From a virus, in the IMG/VR virus record IMGVR_UViG_3300028197_000157, positions 1-24,462 of that record: 24,462 nt of DNA, one strand, 5' to 3'. The position numbers and the translations under genes are program-made. Positions 1,316 through 22,496 of the stretch are shown here, piece by piece (the stretch's first letter is position 1; the number at the start of each line of letters is the position of its first letter). The notes under the pieces were generated by a model that saw nothing but the letters and a program-made list of their open reading frames with translations, was not told the DNA's origin and did not search any database.

Positions 1316-1339
1316 GGTTTTTATCACAGGAGTTTGATT

Positions 1340-2185
1340 ATGAGTGTTCCTTTTATGTGGGTTGACGGTAACTTAACGGTGATCTTAAAGAATAAGGCTC
1401 ACCAAGTAATTCCAGATCATACTAATTACAAATTGATTCTGGAAGCACTACCAACAGCAACAGAAGATGAGTTGCTAGAACTGGTAGACATTGAGAAAGC
1501 TGTTGCTACTTTTAGTGACGGACAAGTATCAATCGTAAATGGCAAGGTGATGTTTGAGGGTGAAGAAGTTCACGGTAGCATCAGCAAGAGAATTATAGAG
1601 TTTATGAGTAAGGGTTTACCTTTCCAGCCTCTTGTAAAATTCTTGGAAAATCTTATGGAGAATCCAAGTATGCAGAGTCAGCAAGAACTGTATGACTTCT
1701 TGGAGCATGAGAATCTTCCTATCACTGAAGACGGATGCTTCCTTGCATACAAGGCAGTCAGTAAAGACTTTAAGGATAAGTGGAAAGGAACATTCGACAA
1801 TAAGGTTGGTCAGGTCTGCGAAATGCGTCGAGCAAAGGTAGACGACAATAGAGGTAGAGGATGTTCTGCTGGACTTCATGCTGGGGCATTAAACTATGTT
1901 GCAAATTATGGCAGCGTGGATGCTGGTGATAATATTGTGATTGTTAAAATCAATCCTGAAGATGTTGTAAGTGTTCCTAGCGATTGCAACTGTGAAAAAC
2001 TTCGCACTTGCAAATACGAAGTAGTCGGTCTTTATCAGGGAGAATTGCCAAAGCCTCTTTATAAGGCTGAATTTGAGGCAGATTCCTATGTTGATGACGA
2101 AGAGTACTCAACAGTGTATGATGAGTATGACGAGGATTACTGGGATCAGTTTGAAGATTGTGATGAAGAAGACTTTGACGACTAA
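1340..2185 (+). CDS. rIIB: rIIB-like protein
   Basis: This is a 281-residue protein of the phage T4 RIIB family (T4 RIIB is about 312 residues). Family-like segments are the N-terminal region with an HxxI motif (residues 22-26), the central GLPFxPLVKFLENLMENP segment and the DGCFLAYKAVS segment near residues 130-140, followed by a Cys/Gly-rich CSAGLHAG motif. RIIB acts with RIIA at the membrane and is linked to exclusion by prophages; its exact biochemistry is unknown. The ATG at 1340 is preferred over the in-frame TTG at 1334 because AGGAG at 1328-1332 is correctly spaced from the ATG. The last 32 residues are strikingly acidic and aromatic (Asp, Glu, Tyr), which I do not associate with T4 RIIB. 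Confidence 0.85.
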   Translation: MSVPFMWVDGNLTVILKNKAHQVIPDHTNYKLILEALPTATEDELLELVDIEKAVATFSDGQVSIVNGKVMFEGEEVHGSISKRIIEFMSKGLPFQPLVKFLENLMENPSMQSQQELYDFLEHENLPITEDGCFLAYKAVSKDFKDKWKGTFDNKVGQVCEMRRAKVDDNRGRGCSAGLHAGALNYVANYGSVDAGDNIVIVKINPEDVVSVPSDCNCEKLRTCKYEVVGLYQGELPKPLYKAEFEADSYVDDEEYSTVYDEYDEDYWDQFEDCDEEDFDD

Positions 2186-2208: not shown

Positions 2209-2601
2209 ATGAAAGACCCTGAACAAAATGAATGGGACGATGATGAATACAATTACTATCCTCAATATAATTTTAATTCAAATGAGTTTAAGTTCGATTG
2301 GAAGAGTTGGGAGAAATGGCTAAAAGATGCTCTCGATGATATAGTCGAACAAGATGGAAGTTGGATTGTAAATGGTAAGAATAAAAAGTTTCCTGTGAGT
2401 GATTCGTTCTCCAAAGATACAGCGAAGTCTCAGTACTTCCTGTATCTGGGGAGCAATCATTACGAAGAAGCTATATGGAAGAAAGAATACTTTGCTTGCG
2501 ATAAAATTAATATGATGTGGAAAGCGCATATATCATCAAACGCAGCACACTATTTAAGACAACCAGCATACTACAAAGGCTTATTCGATATTTTAAATTA
2601 A
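2209..2601 (+). CDS. Unknown acidic, aromatic-rich phage protein
   Basis: I do not recognise this 130-residue protein. Its first 35 residues are rich in Asp, Asn and Tyr, followed by a Trp-rich segment (FDWKSWEKWLKDAL) and a helical C-terminal half with AHISSNAAHYLRQP. There is no signal peptide or membrane segment. A GGAGA ribosome-binding site lies about 8 bases upstream of the ATG. It lies 23 bases after rIIB and 10 bases before the next gene, in the same direction, so it is probably part of the rII operon. It shares acidic, Tyr-rich composition with the rIIB tail and the start of the next protein. Confidence 0.75.
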   Translation: MKDPEQNEWDDDEYNYYPQYNFNSNEFKFDWKSWEKWLKDALDDIVEQDGSWIVNGKNKKFPVSDSFSKDTAKSQYFLYLGSNHYEEAIWKKEYFACDKINMMWKAHISSNAAHYLRQPAYYKGLFDILN

Positions 2602-2611
2602 GAGGTACACC

Positions 2612-3082
2612 ATGTATGACAACGATTATGATAATGAAGATGAAGACAGAGATGGTTATTTAGAAATATCTAATGTTGATAAGTTAGTAAATTTTAGCAG
2701 ACGATTGATTTATTATAACTTTGATGATGAAAGTGAAAAATTATCTGACGCTGATTTCTTTGATCAGGTACAAAAAATTAAACAGGAAGACTTACCAGAA
2801 ATGGACAAGTACCTACCTTTTGATGAAGCTAAAAACATAATGAAGTCTTTACTAATAAAGAGAAGACACAAAAAAACTAAAATACCAAAACTATTTATGA
2901 AAGAATCTGATTATGATGAAGTGCTTGTGCAATTAAATAAAAGATTAGTTTCTAATATCGTTCGGGGTTTGGTAAACAAAGGCGTTGTGGAATCAGCTTT
3001 TGATGATGAGAAAAATGATTTTATATTTTGGGTAAAGGATAAATACAATGAATACGACGACCAACAACCTGAAACCGACTAA
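2612..3082 (+). CDS. Unknown phage protein with acidic N-terminus and winged-helix-like C-terminal part
   Basis: This 156-residue protein opens with a very acidic stretch (residues 1-16), followed by a basic patch RRHKKTK near residues 90-96. The region around residues 108-145 (LVSNIVRGLVNKGVVESAFDD, then a short strand pair ending in FWV) looks like the recognition helix and wing of a winged-helix domain; this is a reading by eye. Function is unknown. AGAGGT precedes the ATG. Its end overlaps the zinc-ribbon gene by 35 bases, which suggests translational coupling. Confidence 0.75.
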   Translation: MYDNDYDNEDEDRDGYLEISNVDKLVNFSRRLIYYNFDDESEKLSDADFFDQVQKIKQEDLPEMDKYLPFDEAKNIMKSLLIKRRHKKTKIPKLFMKESDYDEVLVQLNKRLVSNIVRGLVNKGVVESAFDDEKNDFIFWVKDKYNEYDDQQPETD

Positions 3083-3458
3083 CGATTTCAGTAATATTAG
3101 TTTTAAATATATGTGTACTCAGTGTGGTTGTAATAGTTGGTTTTTTTTAAAACAGCTACAACTAGAGGGATTTAGAGATGTCTGTGATGTATGTGGCAAT
3201 GTATTTGAACCAGAAATTATTGATACAATAGAGATTGTTTTTAAACACAGACCAGAACCTACTAAAGTAGAGATAGTCGAATCTGTCATGCAAGAAGGTC
3301 TGAACACAATGACATTGAATGCTTGTAAACATACATTAAGTTCATTTGGATATAATGATGAGTCTATTGAAAGTATGGTGCAACAATCATACGAAGTAAT
3401 TCAAGAGAATGATGCAACTGCATTGGTAAAGTACGCTATAGAAAATTTTGGAGGTTGA
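3048..3458 (+). CDS. Zinc-ribbon protein with RuvA domain III-like C-terminus; candidate RuvB partner
   Basis: The 136-residue protein has a zinc-ribbon signature: CxxC at residues 23-26 (plus C28) and CxxC at 46-49. Residues about 88-135 form a small helical unit with the pattern ALxxFGY, four to five residues, then a helix containing MV, a linker, and a last helix LVKYAIENF. This is close to the C-terminal domain III of bacterial RuvA (ALxxLGY, then MV, then LIREAL), the domain by which RuvA contacts RuvB. The next gene, two bases downstream, encodes a RuvB-type motor. I infer, not prove, that this protein loads or regulates that motor. The RuvA four-way-junction OB/HhH domains are absent. 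AAAGGA upstream supports the ATG at 3048. Confidence 0.75.
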   Translation: MNTTTNNLKPTNDFSNISFKYMCTQCGCNSWFFLKQLQLEGFRDVCDVCGNVFEPEIIDTIEIVFKHRPEPTKVEIVESVMQEGLNTMTLNACKHTLSSFGYNDESIESMVQQSYEVIQENDATALVKYAIENFGG

Positions 3459-3459
3459 T

Positions 3460-4362
3460 ATGAGTGAGAACACAATGCGTCCTACTACATTTGATGATAT
3501 TTGTGGTCAGGATGATGTAGTAGAACGTCTGAAGATCATGACTACGGGCTGTAAAAATTCAAGTGAAGTTATGCCTCATGTTTTAATAGATGGGCCTCCC
3601 GGCTTAGGAAAGACGACTATATCGAGTGCCATAGCTAATGAGATAGGTACTGATATGTATACAGTTAATGCTGCTAGTGTTCGTAGTCCTAAAGATTTAA
3701 TACCATACTTAATGAATTTACAATCAGGATCAATTTTGTTTATTGATGAAATCCATCGACTTCCAAAATTAGTCGAAGAGTTTTTGTATCCTGTTATGGA
3801 AGATTTTAAAATTGATATGCTTGTTGAAAATAAACCAGACTCTATAGAACTAGAGAAATTTACTATGGTAGGTGCTACAACAAATGGTGGAAGTTTGAGC
3901 CAACCTTTTTATGATCGGTTTACAATTAAAGAACATCTTTCTTTTTATAGTCCTGATGTACTAGCTAAACTGGCAGGGTCGAATGCAAGTAAGATGGGAT
4001 TAACTTTAACAGATGATGAGATGATAGAAATTGCTAAACGTAGTAAAGGCACTCCTAGAATACTAAATGCTCGATTACAGTGGTATAAATACTATACAAA
4101 TTATTATCCAGATGTAAAGGACATTGATAAAGTGTTTAAGAGTCAAGGTATTGATGCCAATGGTTTTGACTCCAACGATACCTCTTACATCGACGTATTA
4201 AAAAAGAACAGGTGTACACCCTTGGGTTTAAATAGCATAGCTGGTATGACCGGCATAGCGATAGAAACGATAGAGAATAGTATTGAACCCTACATGGTTA
4301 GAATGGGTTATGCAGTCAGAACGAAAAGAGGCAGACTGCTAGGAACTATACAAAAGAATTAA
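3460..4362 (+). CDS. ruvB: RuvB-like Holliday-junction branch-migration AAA+ ATPase
   Basis: A 300-residue AAA+ ATPase of the RuvB family (E. coli RuvB is about 336). Visible motifs are: RPxxFDDICGQ at residues 7-17; Walker A GPPGLGKT at 45-52; Walker B ILFIDEIHRL around 92-101; sensor 1 GATTNGG; arginine-finger region PFYDRF near 149-154; sensor 2 GTPRI; and a C-terminal winged helix ending YMVRMGYAVRTKRGR as in RuvB. RuvB drives branch migration of Holliday junctions as a DNA-translocating ring, normally with RuvA. No canonical RuvA or RuvC is in the window. The ATG at 3460, with GGAGG at 3450-3454, is preferred over the TTG at 3448. The 3' end overlaps the convergent gene by 17 bases. Confidence 0.93.
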   Translation: MSENTMRPTTFDDICGQDDVVERLKIMTTGCKNSSEVMPHVLIDGPPGLGKTTISSAIANEIGTDMYTVNAASVRSPKDLIPYLMNLQSGSILFIDEIHRLPKLVEEFLYPVMEDFKIDMLVENKPDSIELEKFTMVGATTNGGSLSQPFYDRFTIKEHLSFYSPDVLAKLAGSNASKMGLTLTDDEMIEIAKRSKGTPRILNARLQWYKYYTNYYPDVKDIDKVFKSQGIDANGFDSNDTSYIDVLKKNRCTPLGLNSIAGMTGIAIETIENSIEPYMVRMGYAVRTKRGRLLGTIQKN

Positions 4363-6122: not shown

Positions 6123-7124
6123 ATGATTGGATTAGATGTAGGTACAAGTTTTATCATTGCCTCATCCTATAAGGGAGATGATATATTATTTAAAGACTTT
6201 AGAGATGCATTTTATGTAATCAAGCCAACCACCCCCATTGCAGCAAAAATGGTTGAGAAAGGTTTGAAAGGTAAAATCTTTATTAAAGATACAGACGGAT
6301 CATTTATTATCTTAGGTAAAGATGCTATAGAAAAAGCAGTAGAAAGAAATGAAACGGCTCGTCGTCCTATGTATCGTGGAGTAGTGTCTGTAAAAGAAAA
6401 GAACGCTAAAAGAATATTAGCATATATTTTAAAAGAAGTAGTTGGCAAAGCCAAGAAAGAAGGGGAGAAATTGGTGTTCTGTGTACCTGCTCAACCTGTA
6501 GATCAAGAAGACGATGATTTCGATGTTGGCTATCATGAAGATGTAGTCAAAACTATTTTATCTGAAGTAGGTTATGATGCTCGATCAGTCAATGAAGCTG
6601 AAGCATTGTGTTATGCAGAATTAGAAAGTTCTGATTATACTGGAATTGGCATCAGTTGTGGTGCTGGCATGACTAATGTTTGTGTTATGCTAAATGGCGA
6701 ACCAACAGTAGTCTTTAGTACCACGAAGTCAGGTGATTGGGTAGACCGCATGAGTGCGGTTGCTACAGGAGAACCCGATAGTGTGGTTCAGGTAGAAAAA
6801 GAAGGAGGCAAGTTCAAAGTGGGTGAACCTAATGATAGTCCTGTACTAAGTGCAGTAGCTTCTTACTACGAAAGACTTATAGAATATACAGCTAAACAAT
6901 TATCGGCAGCGTTATCCGGCCATAAGTCTTTGCCTAAATTTAAAGATGATATTAGAATTGTTGTAGCTGGAGGCACTTCAAAAGCTGACGGTTATGTGGA
7001 AAAGCTACATGAAAAATTATTAGAAGCAGACTTTCCACTTTCTATTGAAGTAGTCAAACATGCTGCCGATCCTCTACATTCTGTATCTAAGGGTTGCTTA
7101 ATTGCCGCTAGTATTTTAGAATAA
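6123..7124 (+). CDS. Actin/Hsp70-superfamily ATPase (ParM/MreB-like)
   Basis: A 333-residue protein with the actin-fold ATPase motifs in order: phosphate 1 at residues 2-9 (IGLDVGTS); a connect-1-like NEAEALCYA near 157-165; phosphate 2 at about 175-186 (GISCGAGMTNVC); an SGDWVDRM motif like GGxxxD in Hsp70 and MreB (203-210); and the adenosine motif VVAGGTSKADG at 280-290. The acidic residue usual at the start of phosphate 2 is Ser178 here, so hydrolysis may be altered. It is the length of MreB or ParM and lacks an Hsp70 substrate domain. It might form filaments that position phage DNA, replication or assembly sites; a non-polymerising ATPase is possible. It follows the small membrane protein by one base. 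Confidence 0.85.
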   Translation: MIGLDVGTSFIIASSYKGDDILFKDFRDAFYVIKPTTPIAAKMVEKGLKGKIFIKDTDGSFIILGKDAIEKAVERNETARRPMYRGVVSVKEKNAKRILAYILKEVVGKAKKEGEKLVFCVPAQPVDQEDDDFDVGYHEDVVKTILSEVGYDARSVNEAEALCYAELESSDYTGIGISCGAGMTNVCVMLNGEPTVVFSTTKSGDWVDRMSAVATGEPDSVVQVEKEGGKFKVGEPNDSPVLSAVASYYERLIEYTAKQLSAALSGHKSLPKFKDDIRIVVAGGTSKADGYVEKLHEKLLEADFPLSIEVVKHAADPLHSVSKGCLIAASILE

Positions 7125-9159: not shown

Positions 9160-9171
9160 AAGGAGTATTTG

Positions 9172-9945
9172 ATGAGATACCTTATTATAGCACTTCTATT
9201 AGTTATGCCTATTCAGGCTTATTGCGGCACTATCGATCCTACAGTTTCTGACGCTAAATATGTAGAATATGGTAAAAAATACGAGTGTGTACTACCCATT
9301 GTAGGAGTAATGGGTGGCCCAATGAATAGTCAGTTCAGAGCATCTTGTGTCGTTATAGATGAATATCATATATTAACTGCTGCACATATTGTTGAAGATA
9401 CTATAACACAACATGTTTTATACAAAAATAAGGCTTACCCGTGTTCTCTGATAGCTATTCATGGAAAATACGACTCTAAAAAAATAGGACATAATGATAT
9501 AGCTGTTGCAAGACTACAAATACCAATTAAATTAGATTTTTATCCCGAACTATATAATGATACAGATGAAACTGACAAGGTTTGTGGACTATCTGGCTGG
9601 GGTCATCATGGAAATTTTAATAGTGGATGGATAAGCAAGTTTGATAATACTAGACGAGCTGGTTCTAATATTGTTGATGGCGTAGATAACAATATATTAA
9701 AACATTCAGTTCACACATCGAAAAAAACAGAATTAGAATTTCTGATATGTCCGGGAGATAGTGGAGGTGGATTATTTATTGATAAAAAACTAGCAGGTAT
9801 ACATTCATATGTTTATGCTACTGATGGCAAAAGCGATTCTGACTACGGTGATGTTGGATGTAGTACTAGAGTAAGTGATTATGTAGAATGGATAGATAAA
9901 ACAAAAGAACTAATAAAAGAAATTCTTAATAATGACGCTATGTAA
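9172..9945 (+). CDS. Secreted trypsin-like (S1) serine protease
   Basis: A 257-residue protein with a Sec signal peptide (residues 1 to about 19, MRYLIIALLLVMPIQAYCG) and a chymotrypsin-fold catalytic domain. The catalytic triad is visible as TAAH (His72), HNDIAVARL (Asp109) and CPGDSGGGLF (Ser197). Several cysteines (39, 59, 91, 138, 193 and one near the end) could form disulfides in the periplasm. There is no propeptide clearly marked, although GKKYECVLPIVGV may contain the processing site. Exported S1 proteases are uncommon in phage genomes. The ATG at 9172 with AGGAG at 9161-9165 is preferred over the TTG at 9169. Its end overlaps the next glycosyltransferase by 14 bases. Confidence 0.93.
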   Translation: MRYLIIALLLVMPIQAYCGTIDPTVSDAKYVEYGKKYECVLPIVGVMGGPMNSQFRASCVVIDEYHILTAAHIVEDTITQHVLYKNKAYPCSLIAIHGKYDSKKIGHNDIAVARLQIPIKLDFYPELYNDTDETDKVCGLSGWGHHGNFNSGWISKFDNTRRAGSNIVDGVDNNILKHSVHTSKKTELEFLICPGDSGGGLFIDKKLAGIHSYVYATDGKSDSDYGDVGCSTRVSDYVEWIDKTKELIKEILNNDAM

Positions 9946-10666
9946 AAATATAAATATTTACTGTGTCTTAAAAACAAATGAAATATATAATCTAAATTAT
10001 GTAAATAAATTACATGAATGTATTAAAAAAAACACACCAAAAAATATATCTATTAATTTTGTTTGTTTAACAGACAGCCCTGCTGCTACAGATGTCTGGC
10101 CTTTTCATCATGAATATCAGTCTGGTGCTACTCGTCAACTGAAATACAACTGGCCCGGATGGTGGTCTAAAATGGAATTATTTAGACCAGATATTGAGGG
10201 AGATATTTTATTTTTTGATTTAGATACAATCATTTACAATAACTTACAAGATATATATGATATGTGTTTTGATAATTCATCACCTATCATGATAGCTCCA
10301 TTTCAAGCTGCTAATGACTATAATAACTATAGTAATAATACATTTTATCAAAAATATAATTTATTTCTACGTTATATAGGTAGTGGTGTTATGTGGCTAC
10401 CAAAAAAAATCAGAAAAAAAGTTTGGGAAAAGTGGATGCAAAATCCACATCATTGGATGGAAAAATGCAAAGAATCAGGTGATCAACACTTTATATCTTA
10501 TTGTCTTAACACACAAGGAGAAATTCTATTTTTTCAAAAACTTAAAAAACAATCTGTTGTTTCATTTAAAATAGACTGTATTGAAAAAACACCTAAAGAT
10601 GCAATAGTTATATGTTATCACGGAACCCCACGCCCTCATGAAACAGGTTGGGCCACAAAGCATTAA
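9932..10666 (+). CDS. GT8-like glycosyltransferase, possibly shortened by an in-frame stop
   Basis: The 244-residue protein has a GT-A fold: an N-terminal IYCVLKTN strand, SKMELFRPD, the DxD motif in DILFFDLDTIIY, IGSGVMWLP, and a C-terminal CYHGTPRPHE that in such enzymes closes the nucleotide-sugar site. This pattern is common in small glycosyltransferases of the GT8-like type. Its start overlaps the protease by 14 bases. The TAA at 10664 is followed by 26 further sense codons in the same frame up to TGA at 10745, which overlaps the next gene's ATG, so the ancestral gene may have been longer. The catalytic motifs lie before the stop. Confidence 0.85.
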   Translation: MTLCKNINIYCVLKTNEIYNLNYVNKLHECIKKNTPKNISINFVCLTDSPAATDVWPFHHEYQSGATRQLKYNWPGWWSKMELFRPDIEGDILFFDLDTIIYNNLQDIYDMCFDNSSPIMIAPFQAANDYNNYSNNTFYQKYNLFLRYIGSGVMWLPKKIRKKVWEKWMQNPHHWMEKCKESGDQHFISYCLNTQGEILFFQKLKKQSVVSFKIDCIEKTPKDAIVICYHGTPRPHETGWATKH

Positions 10667-10747
10667 GAATGCTCCGGTGCTAATGAAGATGCAATAAAAC
10701 TGAGGCTTGGAAAATTATTCCCAAATGAAGAAAGTACAATAAAATGA
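10667..10747 (+). other. In-frame open continuation after the glycosyltransferase stop
   Basis: After TAA at 10664-10666 the same frame stays open for 26 codons with a protein-like composition (ECSGANEDAIKLRLGKLF, then PNEESTIK) and ends at TGA 10745-10747, which forms an ATGA overlap with the subtilase start at 10744. The region contains no other gene. It looks like a coding tail cut off by a nonsense change, or a readthrough extension. Confidence 0.5.
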
Positions 10748-11658
10748 ATAGAAGAGAATGCAAACTTTTACCACATATTTCTCAACCACTATATGGATTA
10801 AGTCCACATGACATACAATTTTTGCCTTGGGCTATAAAAAGATTTGATGTGCAAGAAGCATGGAGATATTCTCAAGGTGAGAATGTAACCGTCGCTGTAA
10901 TAGATACAGGATGTGATTTAACCCATAGTGATCTCAAAGACAATCTTTTAACTGGTAAAAATTTTGTCGATAATAATAATAATCCACAAGATGTTAATGG
11001 TCATGGTAGTCATGTAGCAGGAACTATAGCTGCAATTGATAATAGTTATGGTATGGTTGGTGTCGCTCCTAAAACTAAAATTATACCAATTAAATCTTTA
11101 GGAGATAATGGTAGTGGTTCTATGCGTGACGTGGCTAACGGTGTCATGTGGGCTGTAGATCATGGAGCAGAACTAATAACCATGTCTTTGGGATCTCCTT
11201 ATCCTTCTAGAGTATTAGAGCATGCACTAAGATATGCGGCAGATAATAAGGTCATAGTGTTCTGTGCTGCTGGTAATTCTGGTAATTCTACGGACATAAA
11301 TTATCCTGCCAAATTTTTAGAAACAATAGCCATAGGTTCTATTAATCATGCTTTAGGGGTATCTGATTTTAGTTGTTGTGGAAATACTCTTGATTTTGTA
11401 TCACCAGGAGAAGATGTTATTAGTGCTGCACCGGGCAACAAGTATGCCAGATTGACAGGTACAAGCATGGCAACACCTTATGCTGTAGGTTGTGCTGCTC
11501 TGCTTTTGTCATTAAGAAAAAAACAAAACAGAAATGTAAAATTAAAACATAAAAATGGTTATATAGAAGAATTTTCAGAAAATGCAATGCCTTTGCAGGA
11601 TAAGTATGCTGGAGATAAAAAATATCAAGGAAATGGTATAATTGTACCTAAGATATGA
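10744..11658 (+). CDS. Subtilisin-like (S8) serine protease, probably cytoplasmic
   Basis: A 304-residue subtilase. The triad is clear: VAVIDTGCD (Asp54), NGHGSHVAG (His87) and GTSMATP (Ser241), with the oxyanion Asn in AAGNSG (Asn178). There is no signal peptide or long prodomain; the roughly 30-residue N-terminal extension ahead of WAIKRFDVQEAW is like that of intracellular subtilisins, where it blocks the active site until processed. It could act on virion precursors, host proteins or lysis factors. The ATG at 10744 has no good ribosome-binding site but overlaps a TGA (ATGA), implying coupling to the upstream frame. The C-terminal tail after residue 265 is low-similarity and basic. No prohead protease context is evident. 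Confidence 0.93.
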   Translation: MNRRECKLLPHISQPLYGLSPHDIQFLPWAIKRFDVQEAWRYSQGENVTVAVIDTGCDLTHSDLKDNLLTGKNFVDNNNNPQDVNGHGSHVAGTIAAIDNSYGMVGVAPKTKIIPIKSLGDNGSGSMRDVANGVMWAVDHGAELITMSLGSPYPSRVLEHALRYAADNKVIVFCAAGNSGNSTDINYPAKFLETIAIGSINHALGVSDFSCCGNTLDFVSPGEDVISAAPGNKYARLTGTSMATPYAVGCAALLLSLRKKQNRNVKLKHKNGYIEEFSENAMPLQDKYAGDKKYQGNGIIVPKI

Positions 11659-18972: not shown

Positions 18973-19434
18973 ATGAACGAGAATATTCACGATTATCGTA
19001 TAGTGTGGCAAAAGTGGTCTGATCCATTAGGAGAAGATGATTTAGATCTTATACCTGAAGAAGAAACAACTACTTCTGAGGATATAACTGGTATTTTCTA
19101 TGATGATGAAGGAAATGCTATTGATATTGATCCTGAAACTGAGGGTATGGAGTTTTTCAAAAAACCAACTAAAGTTATAATAACACCTATGGGTATTATA
19201 CCATATACAGATAATACAGCATCTAATAAAATTTTTAATTTTTGGATTGGACATACAAACTTTGATTTAAACAGCGGTATATGTAAACTGATAGAGTTAC
19301 ATAGAGGTATAGAAACTTTAGATATTTTTACCAGATATCGCTTTAGGATTGGTATAGGCAAACTATTTGAAGGTGGAGACATAATGTCTTCTATCAGCGA
19401 ACAAATAAATGAATACTTATCAAGAGACAAATAA
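18973..19434 (+). CDS. Unknown conserved phage protein
   Basis: A 153-residue protein: an acidic N-terminus (residues 10-50, GEDDLDLIPEEE...), then VIITPMGIIPYTDNTA, FNFWIGHTNFDLN and a C-terminal TRYRFRIGIGKLF. Segments with this order occur in hypothetical proteins of T4-like phages, as I recall. No ribosome-binding site is seen before the ATG. TTGCTG (18940), 16 bases, and TATAAT (18962-18967) lie directly upstream, so a transcript starting there would be nearly leaderless. It overlaps ClpP by one base. Confidence 0.65.
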   Translation: MNENIHDYRIVWQKWSDPLGEDDLDLIPEEETTTSEDITGIFYDDEGNAIDIDPETEGMEFFKKPTKVIITPMGIIPYTDNTASNKIFNFWIGHTNFDLNSGICKLIELHRGIETLDIFTRYRFRIGIGKLFEGGDIMSSISEQINEYLSRDK

Positions 19435-20105
19435 TGGTTCCCATAGGCAATAATACAGACACAGACTTACACAATATTCATAATATGTGTATAGACCCGA
19501 AAGGTAGGGAAGTATACCTACATTCTAGTTTTGATTCGGAAGAAGAATCTGGGGTAGAGTTTAGGTCTGCAATAATGTTTGAAAAAAATATCAGATACTT
19601 AAACCTATTATCTACTGAACCAATTTTGGTTCATATGCATCTACCGGGAGGAGATTGGCAAGACTGTATGGGAATTATGGATGCCATCCGTGCATCTGCT
19701 TCGAAAGTTTTTATCTTAGCATATGGTAAAGTAGAATCTGCTAGTAGTATATTGCTGCAATATGCAGATCTTAGGGTTCTTATGCCTAATACACACATGC
19801 TTATACATTATGGCTCTTTAAGTATTGACAACGAACACAAGGCTGCAAAAAGCAGTTTTGAGTGGAGTGAAAAAGAATCACTTAAAATGATTAATATTTT
19901 TACAGACAGATGTATTGGTAGTCCAATAGCAAAAGAAAGAAATTGGAAAAAACACATTATAAGAAAACACATCATGTCTCAACTAGACAACAAAAGTGAT
20001 TGGATTTTAAATGCTGAGGAAGCAGTATATTATGGTTTCGCTGACGGTGTATTAGGAGATAGAAAGTTTAGTACAATAGATAAACTAAAAAATAGAAAAA
20101 GATAA
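19434..20105 (+). CDS. ClpP-like serine protease
   Basis: A 223-residue ClpP/crotonase-fold protease. The nucleophile aligns with Ser102 in YGKVESASS (ClpP GQAASMG); His125 is in MLIHYGS (ClpP MIHQ), and Asp189 in NKSDWILNAEEAVYYGFADG (ClpP SAEEAxxYGLxD), so the triad is intact. The LPGGDW loop corresponds to the N-terminal strand turn of ClpP (NSPGG). Phage ClpP-like proteases may mature capsids or act as peptidases. No Clp ATPase is seen. It starts in TAATG with the upstream stop and ends 1 base before the next ATG, so it is probably co-translated with the DeoC-like gene. Confidence 0.85.
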   Translation: MVPIGNNTDTDLHNIHNMCIDPKGREVYLHSSFDSEEESGVEFRSAIMFEKNIRYLNLLSTEPILVHMHLPGGDWQDCMGIMDAIRASASKVFILAYGKVESASSILLQYADLRVLMPNTHMLIHYGSLSIDNEHKAAKSSFEWSEKESLKMINIFTDRCIGSPIAKERNWKKHIIRKHIMSQLDNKSDWILNAEEAVYYGFADGVLGDRKFSTIDKLKNRKR

Positions 20106-22037: not shown

Positions 22038-22496
22038 ATGAAAATTAAAGGATATCAAACTAGTGAGTTTTGGTTTACATTAGTAAGCTTTATTATTAGT
22101 GGATTATTTTTAGGTGGTGTTATTTTAGAAGCAGATACTAAAGATGATTTAATAAGTGTGTCAACTCATGTGGTTGAGAGTATAATTCTAATAGGAGGAC
22201 AATTTGCTCTCTTCGGTAGGCATATGTCTAGAAGAAGAAGAGAACAACAAGAAGATCAAAGGGTCAGTAAAGAATTAGAAGATTATGTTGGGGTTGACAG
22301 GATTTATAATAAAATTAGTATAAATACAGCTAATATTGGAGAACTTATTCAACTGCCACACGTAGGTCCTGTAACAGCACAAAGGATAGTAGACTATAGG
22401 AAAGCAAATCTTTTTGAAGATCTAGGTCAATTAAAAAGTATAAGCGGTGTTGGCGAATCAAGTTATCAAGATATTGAACCATACATTGAACTATGA
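22038..22496 (+). CDS. Membrane protein with ComEA-type helix-hairpin-helix domain
   Basis: A 152-residue protein with two transmembrane helices (about residues 11-29 and 44-62) joined by a short acidic loop. A basic stretch SRRRREQQE follows, and then a ComEA-like helix-hairpin-helix pair at residues 93-152: ISINTANIGELIQLPHVGPVTAQRIVDYR and DLGQLKSISGVGES, given here in two pieces. The positive stop-transfer suggests the DNA-binding end faces the cytoplasm. ComEA binds incoming DNA on the outer side of the membrane; here the placement would be inside, perhaps holding phage DNA at the membrane. The RBS is AAGG at moderate spacing. Confidence 0.8.
   Translation: MKIKGYQTSEFWFTLVSFIISGLFLGGVILEADTKDDLISVSTHVVESIILIGGQFALFGRHMSRRRREQQEDQRVSKELEDYVGVDRIYNKISINTANIGELIQLPHVGPVTAQRIVDYRKANLFEDLGQLKSISGVGESSYQDIEPYIEL

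Follow-up and report, generated by a model that had tools for sequence, protein, structure and literature searches.

RuvB is understood as a motor that needs the tetrameric junction platform of RuvA for being loaded and driven. In T4-like phages, UvsW-type helicases serve in branch migration; they belong to superfamily 2 and are not AAA+ rings working with an adaptor. Within RuvAB, domain III of RuvA is the nucleotide-exchange and ATPase-activating element, and cryo-electron microscopy showed that the presensor-1 hairpin and helix alpha3 of RuvB form a hydrophobic docking surface for this domain (PMC9477746). Alanine mutants of the residues L167 and L170 of E. coli RuvA lose RuvB activity (PMC2628435). 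Here we describe a viral DNA of 24,462 bases, the IMG/VR virus record IMGVR_UViG_3300028197_000157 (the entire stretch is referred to as the window), which encodes a RuvB directly downstream of a small zinc-ribbon protein with a RuvA domain III tail. We consider it probable that this small protein is a RuvB-docking adaptor, the tail of which docks on the phage's own RuvB, and that its zinc ribbon supplants RuvA domains I and II as the targeting head.

The tail of the adaptor is homologous to RuvA domain III, since profile, Pfam, fold, hhalign and reciprocal searches all agree in this respect. In a comparison of the family profile with all PDB sequences, RuvA ranked at the top (1ixs_A, E 0.0046), with its chains dominating the list. 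Among the Pfam families, RuvA_C is matched by the largest number of adaptor members (11 of 28). The three helices of the tail in the AlphaFold2 (AF2) model were matched by Foldseek to 1ixs_A with a TM-score of 0.75 and 1.8 Å over 47 columns and to other RuvAs with 1.3-1.4 Å, the individual E-values being weak (about 1) because the domain is so short. The alignment of the family tail with 36 genuine RuvA tails by hhalign reached 96.7% with a score of 45.8 over 49 columns, compared to at most 1.0% and a score of at most 11.3 for 30 column-shuffled controls. Vice versa, the phage tail profile was run on 92 bacterial-type ruvB loci, and all of its matches (best E 1.1e-6) lie in domain III of genuine RuvAs. 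The residues L167 and L170 of E. coli RuvA correspond to L97 and F100 of the adaptor and are L/M and Y/L/F throughout the family, with their hydrophobic nature retained. A mismatch of the C-terminal helices with RuvA domain III had been named beforehand as one of the outcomes that would speak against the whole idea; both the profile comparison and the predicted structure show that these helices match.

The first-pass annotation had read the tail as AL followed by FGY, MV and LVKYAIENF. The latter three are present (T96-L-S-S-F100-G-Y102, M110-V111 and L126-V-K-Y-A-I-E-N-F134), whereas the supposed AL is in fact TL. The resemblance to RuvA can be demonstrated only with the help of the family, since no Pfam match above threshold is obtained with the window member by itself. 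Single-sequence searches of Pfam, PHROGs and cultured phages with this member gave nothing useful, no relative being found among the cultured phages, and its own sequence patterns retrieve one near-copy only. The alignment of the adaptors does not contain any stretch conserved enough for a degenerate-pattern scan, and a fold search in BFVD did not reveal a viral protein convincingly matching both adaptor domains.

The head of the adaptor is a zinc ribbon, made up of a beta ribbon with two knuckles of the CxxC type according to sequence, AF2 and Foldseek, with predicted zinc binding. The CxxC pairs noticed before at residues 23-26 and 46-49 were found again in the open reading frame (ORF) of 136 amino acids (aa). 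Foldseek and profile comparisons indicate likeness to ribosomal ribbons and to ribbons of the AgmX type (7zok, E 0.046) and the ZitP type (2nb9). The head does not match RuvA domains I and II (hhalign 0.06%), and neither a Pfam helix-hairpin-helix (HhH) domain nor RuvA domain I (PF01330) was detected in the adaptor protein. There is also no evident tetramerisation region in the head, which therefore cannot copy the junction platform of RuvA in the same manner. The earlier assumption of a phage motor lacking a canonical RuvA is supported by a search for the N-terminal domain of RuvA (PF01330), which was not found in any of 21 phage contigs but in 10 of 14 control genomes. RuvC (PF02075) was not found in 21 contigs, and a search for RusA was negative as well. 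However, the contigs searched are fragments and the absence of canonical RuvA and RuvC is therefore provisional. The net charge of the head is basic in the family mean (+6) and acidic in the window member (-3), so that charge does not settle the matter of DNA binding.

The next gene encodes a complete RuvB motor, just as the first-pass annotation had stated. All three Pfam domains are present (RuvB_N 7e-49, RuvB_C 7e-16, lid 3e-7), as are the motifs GPPGLGKT, LFIDEIHR, GATT, DRF and GTPR, which represent Walker A, Walker B, sensor 1, the arginine finger and sensor 2. These motor motifs are conserved in 99-109 of 109 phage RuvBs. The AF2 model (predicted local distance difference test, pLDDT, of 90) has solved RuvBs as its best Foldseek matches throughout, with a TM-score of up to 0.90 (6blb), and its presensor-1 hairpin aligns with the hairpin known to dock RuvA domain III. 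Translation of ruvB starts at the ATG at 3460 rather than at the TTG at 3448 that an ORF caller picks, and the adaptor stop lies one base ahead of this ATG. Since the ribosome-binding site of ruvB, GGAGGT, is located within the last codons of the adaptor gene, adaptor and ruvB are translationally close.

The arrangement of adaptor and ruvB is not a single case but is conserved across the family and occurs in many uncultured phages. Relatives were gathered via RuvB (41 loci, then 326, of which 80 were kept, then a further set) and duplicates were removed. A zinc-ribbon gene is situated directly upstream of 86 of 108 distinct phage RuvBs, and the other 22 do not possess one. The relatives of the adaptor comprise 120-170 aa; all four cysteines are kept in 89 and the tail motif [LM]xx[YFL]G[FY] in all of the 90 distinct adaptors, which is far more than chance would account for. 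The ratio of non-synonymous to synonymous substitution rates (dN/dS) in close pairs is approximately 0.04-0.20 and indicates purifying selection. The intergenic distance between adaptor and ruvB is near zero across the family, and no natural fusion of the two was found among the collected phage loci. The order of genes is almost invariant, with rIIB being followed by two genes without assigned function, the adaptor and ruvB.

Those phages that possess a RuvB but no adaptor are informative with regard to docking. Absence of the adaptor requires about five changes on the RuvB tree. The largest adaptor-less clade consists of 11 RuvBs and differs from all adaptor-positive RuvBs at the positions 67, 81, 82, 118 and 207. 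In the AF2 model, positions 81 and 82 begin the third helix, which would be alpha3 as the order of helices suggests, and position 118 is part of the presensor-1 hairpin. At these three positions, adaptor-positive RuvBs have hydrophobic residues or proline in 100% of the cases, whereas the clade shows the changes L/I/M to T/S (81), P to R/K/T (82) and L/I/M to A (118), all of which lower hydrophobicity. Provided that this helix is alpha3, three of the five separating positions belong to the docking set (p 0.002, with a pattern noticed before it was tested and a docking set chosen after seeing the data). Since the enrichment was noted prior to the test and concerns one clade, it is suggestive but no proof. 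In the remaining lineages without adaptor, the docking site is unchanged. An adaptor encoded elsewhere was not found in two long adaptor-less contigs (160 and 192 kb), and the existence of 22 RuvBs without adaptor, about half of them with an intact site, shows that some phages can do without it.

A second type of phage protein carries the same domain. Contig IMGVR_UViG_3300027838_000022 (L053) encodes at 9572-10018 on the minus strand a protein of 148 aa with a transmembrane-like segment at the N-terminus and a RuvA domain III tail, which reaches 29.5 bits with Pfam RuvA_C (curated cut-off: 24). Its gene is located directly downstream of rIIB, and relatives are present in two further loci (L128 and L129). 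The RuvB of this contig is a distant one (46% identical) and is encoded away from the domain III gene; a zinc-ribbon adaptor is missing. By this membrane-anchored protein, the phage tails are linked to RuvA_C via a second route, which points to a modular use of domain III. At somewhat less than an even chance, RuvA domain III might even be a portable RuvB-docking module that was grafted onto different heads, such as a zinc ribbon or a membrane anchor beside rIIB, which would make RuvB a re-aimable pump for double-stranded DNA (dsDNA), independent of the RuvA platform.

If the adaptor works as we suppose, its tail would dock on the presensor-1 hairpin and the third helix of the phage RuvB in the same way as that of RuvA, which is expected from homology, and the docked tail would tether and stimulate the dsDNA pump. 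The zinc ribbon on its flexible linker would then set the site where RuvB is recruited and switched on. We speculate that the target of the ribbon is most likely DNA or a DNA-bound protein of phage recombination or replication intermediates, and that branch migration might be the output. A replacement of RuvA junction binding by the zinc ribbon, as put forward in the first-pass annotation, is something we infer, and the junction is only one of the options. A junction as target would fit the nearby recombination genes, and a protein as target would be almost equally consistent with the type of ribbon, the acidic head in the window and the membrane-anchored variant. It is therefore a substantial, albeit less probable, alternative that the tail docks RuvB but the ribbon binds a protein, so that it links the motor to a phage machine like the replisome, the rII complex, the membrane or the packaging site, and the motor acts as a general dsDNA translocase. 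The ribbon resembles those of AgmX and ZitP just as well as ribosomal ones, the head in the window is acidic, the cassette is always found behind rIIB and the tail of the distant relative follows a transmembrane-like segment, again beside rIIB. Most heads are basic, however, and about half of the long contigs (8 of 15) encode a candidate Endo VII-type resolvase, which is in line with a role at junctions.

Other explanations concern the tail and its partner. It is unlikely that the adaptor acts on the host by sitting on the docking site of its RuvB or displacing its RuvA, and that it blocks or hijacks host branch migration in this way. Domain III of RuvA is functional across species boundaries (PMC9477746), RuvB of Planctomycetota is the nearest one to the phage RuvBs, and phages are reported to have proteins with a RuvA C-terminal domain that stand alone, without a phage RuvB (phage Kirov, PMC10454425), but the adaptor gene is tied to the phage's own ruvB at almost no distance and it is the docking site of the phage RuvB that is changed in the adaptor-less clade. 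We regard it as equally improbable that the phage RuvB acts on its own, with the adaptor as an accessory or regulator that is only loosely linked to it. This would agree with the 22 distinct RuvBs that lack an adjacent adaptor and with the two long contigs that do not encode one elsewhere; on the other hand, there are 86 distinct pairs under purifying selection, and the docking site is remodelled in the largest clade without adaptor. Finally, the tail might share only the generic three-helix fold of UBA domains with RuvA and be unrelated to RuvB. RuvA domain III and UBA domains do belong to the same fold class, and searches with the window sequence alone are insignificant. UBA sequences are plentiful in the PDB, yet the first of them appears in the profile comparison at E 1.6, far below RuvA, and it is RuvA that stands out in hhalign as well as in the reciprocal search. 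We thus rejected a merely UBA-like tail and consider this explanation very improbable.

Several observations also weigh against the adaptor as a docking and targeting protein. The head of the window member is acidic although the family average is basic. The contigs from which the absence of RuvA is judged are metagenomic and incomplete, and the host possesses a RuvAB itself. The change of the docking site in the adaptor-less clade is essentially one evolutionary event, and about half of the 22 distinct RuvBs without adaptor retain an intact docking site. Moreover, an analysis of covariation between tail and RuvB in 90 pairs (effective number 62) revealed no enrichment at the docking site.

Table 1. 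Features of the rIIB-adaptor-ruvB cassette, with positions in the window
Feature	Position	Strand	Remarks
rIIB homologue heading the cassette	1334..2185	+	PHROG 609 2e-71; in 68/69 adaptor-positive loci
'Minus 3' gene, function unassigned	2209..2601	+	in 69/69 adaptor-positive loci
'Minus 2' gene, function unassigned	2612..3082	+	overlaps adaptor start by 35 nucleotides; in 82/83 adaptor-positive loci
Zinc-ribbon / RuvA domain III adaptor gene	3048..3458	+	ORF of 136 aa
Zinc ribbon, residues 18-60	3099..3227	+	C23, C26, C46, C49; W31, E36, I58 conserved; AF2 pLDDT > 90
Flexible linker, residues 61-86	3228..3305	+	low AF2 confidence; length in relatives approximately 9-77 residues
RuvA domain III-like tail, residues 87-134	3306..3449	+	three helices
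GGAGGT Shine-Dalgarno sequence of ruvB	3450..3455	+	inside 3' end of adaptor gene
Phage RuvB motor	3460..4362	+	300 aa
Walker A GPPGLGKT, RuvB residues 45-52	3592..3615	+	kept in 108/109
Third helix of RuvB, residues 81-85	3700..3714	+	AF2; part of the expected domain III docking patch (PMC9477746); altered in adaptor-less clade
Presensor-1 beta-hairpin, AF2 strands 117-122 and 125-130	3808..3849	+	PMC2628435, PMC9477746; altered in adaptor-less clade
C-terminal winged helix of RuvB (DNA-binding domain)	4159..4341	+	Pfam RuvB_C, residues 234-294

Next to the adaptor, the cassette contains the strongly conserved small protein of the 'minus 2' gene (2612-3082), with the invariant residues R30, E63, R111, N115, D131, F137, F139 and W140. 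It is always encoded upstream of the adaptor or of ruvB, and searches for its family did not match any known one. Downstream of ruvB, an actin- or Hsp70-like ATPase was recognized by eye at 6123-7124; it occurs downstream in 43 of 63 adaptor-positive and 10 of 13 adaptor-negative loci and is possibly a DNA-positioning filament. Further proteins of the window assigned by eye are a ComEA-like protein (22038-22496), which is anchored in the membrane and has a helix-hairpin-helix motif for DNA binding, and a trypsin-like, a subtilisin-like and a ClpP-like protease (9169-9945, 10744-11658 and 19434-20105), the number of proteases being unusual for one phage segment.

With respect to the phage setting, a relative of 195 kb encodes a terminase, a polymerase of the DNA polymerase III alpha type, UvsX/RecA, a primase and a PD-(D/E)XK exonuclease. 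The phage RuvBs branch with the RuvB of Planctomycetota (SH-aLRT 93 in a quick tree). In addition, proteins with DUF1501 or the pilin-like DUF1559, which we take to be typical of Planctomycetota, are encoded in two contigs (the 195-kb contig L051/L052 and L053), and a planctomycete host is therefore likely. Some unverified 'phage' records (OR844993, OR846600, OR846825, MT835478 and others) contain a bacterial-type ruvA upstream of ruvB and hence look like contaminations with host chromosome.

A phage RuvB that is paired with such an adaptor was not found described in open-access papers, which is in agreement with the earlier remark that this arrangement had not been seen before. However, the RuvA_C domain is not new to phages in itself, since phage Kirov has been reported to encode a 'RuvA C-terminal domain-containing' protein (PMC10454425). 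Judged by description, proteins of the Kirov type share with the adaptor the presence of a RuvA_C domain without complete RuvA in a phage; they differ in that no RuvB is listed and no zinc ribbon is described for Kirov. The Holliday junction systems surveyed in jumbo phages likewise belong to the recombination machinery that phages encode, and some include Endo VII-like resolvases (PMC7824862), whereas the system presented here consists of a RuvB with a dedicated adaptor. If our interpretation is true, a phage pair that is widespread and retains the coupling domain of RuvA and RuvB but not the platform would separate the finding of DNA by RuvA from the driving of the motor. It would become testable whether domain III alone is able to load and stimulate RuvB, and the pair would be an example of the repurposing of a host recombination motor by phages.

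Compared to bacterial RuvB (PF05496, PF17864 and PF05491), the RuvB of the window possesses the same three domains with Walker A and B, sensor 1, arginine finger, sensor 2, presensor-1 hairpin and winged helix, but it is phage-encoded, only about 300 aa long, has a shorter presensor-1 hairpin and is only about 40% identical. The adaptor has in common with RuvA the homologous three-helix tail (PF07499, domain III) behind a flexible linker, the hydrophobic counterparts of L167 and L170 and the position of its gene upstream of and adjoining ruvB. In contrast to RuvA, it is 120-170 instead of approximately 200 aa in length and lacks domain I (PF01330), the HhH domain II and the acidic pin, having a zinc ribbon in their place. 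Since it lacks two defining features of RuvA, namely domains I and II, it should not be called RuvA. We regard adaptor and RuvB together as a novel form of a RuvAB-type system, and the adaptor not as a member of the RuvA family.
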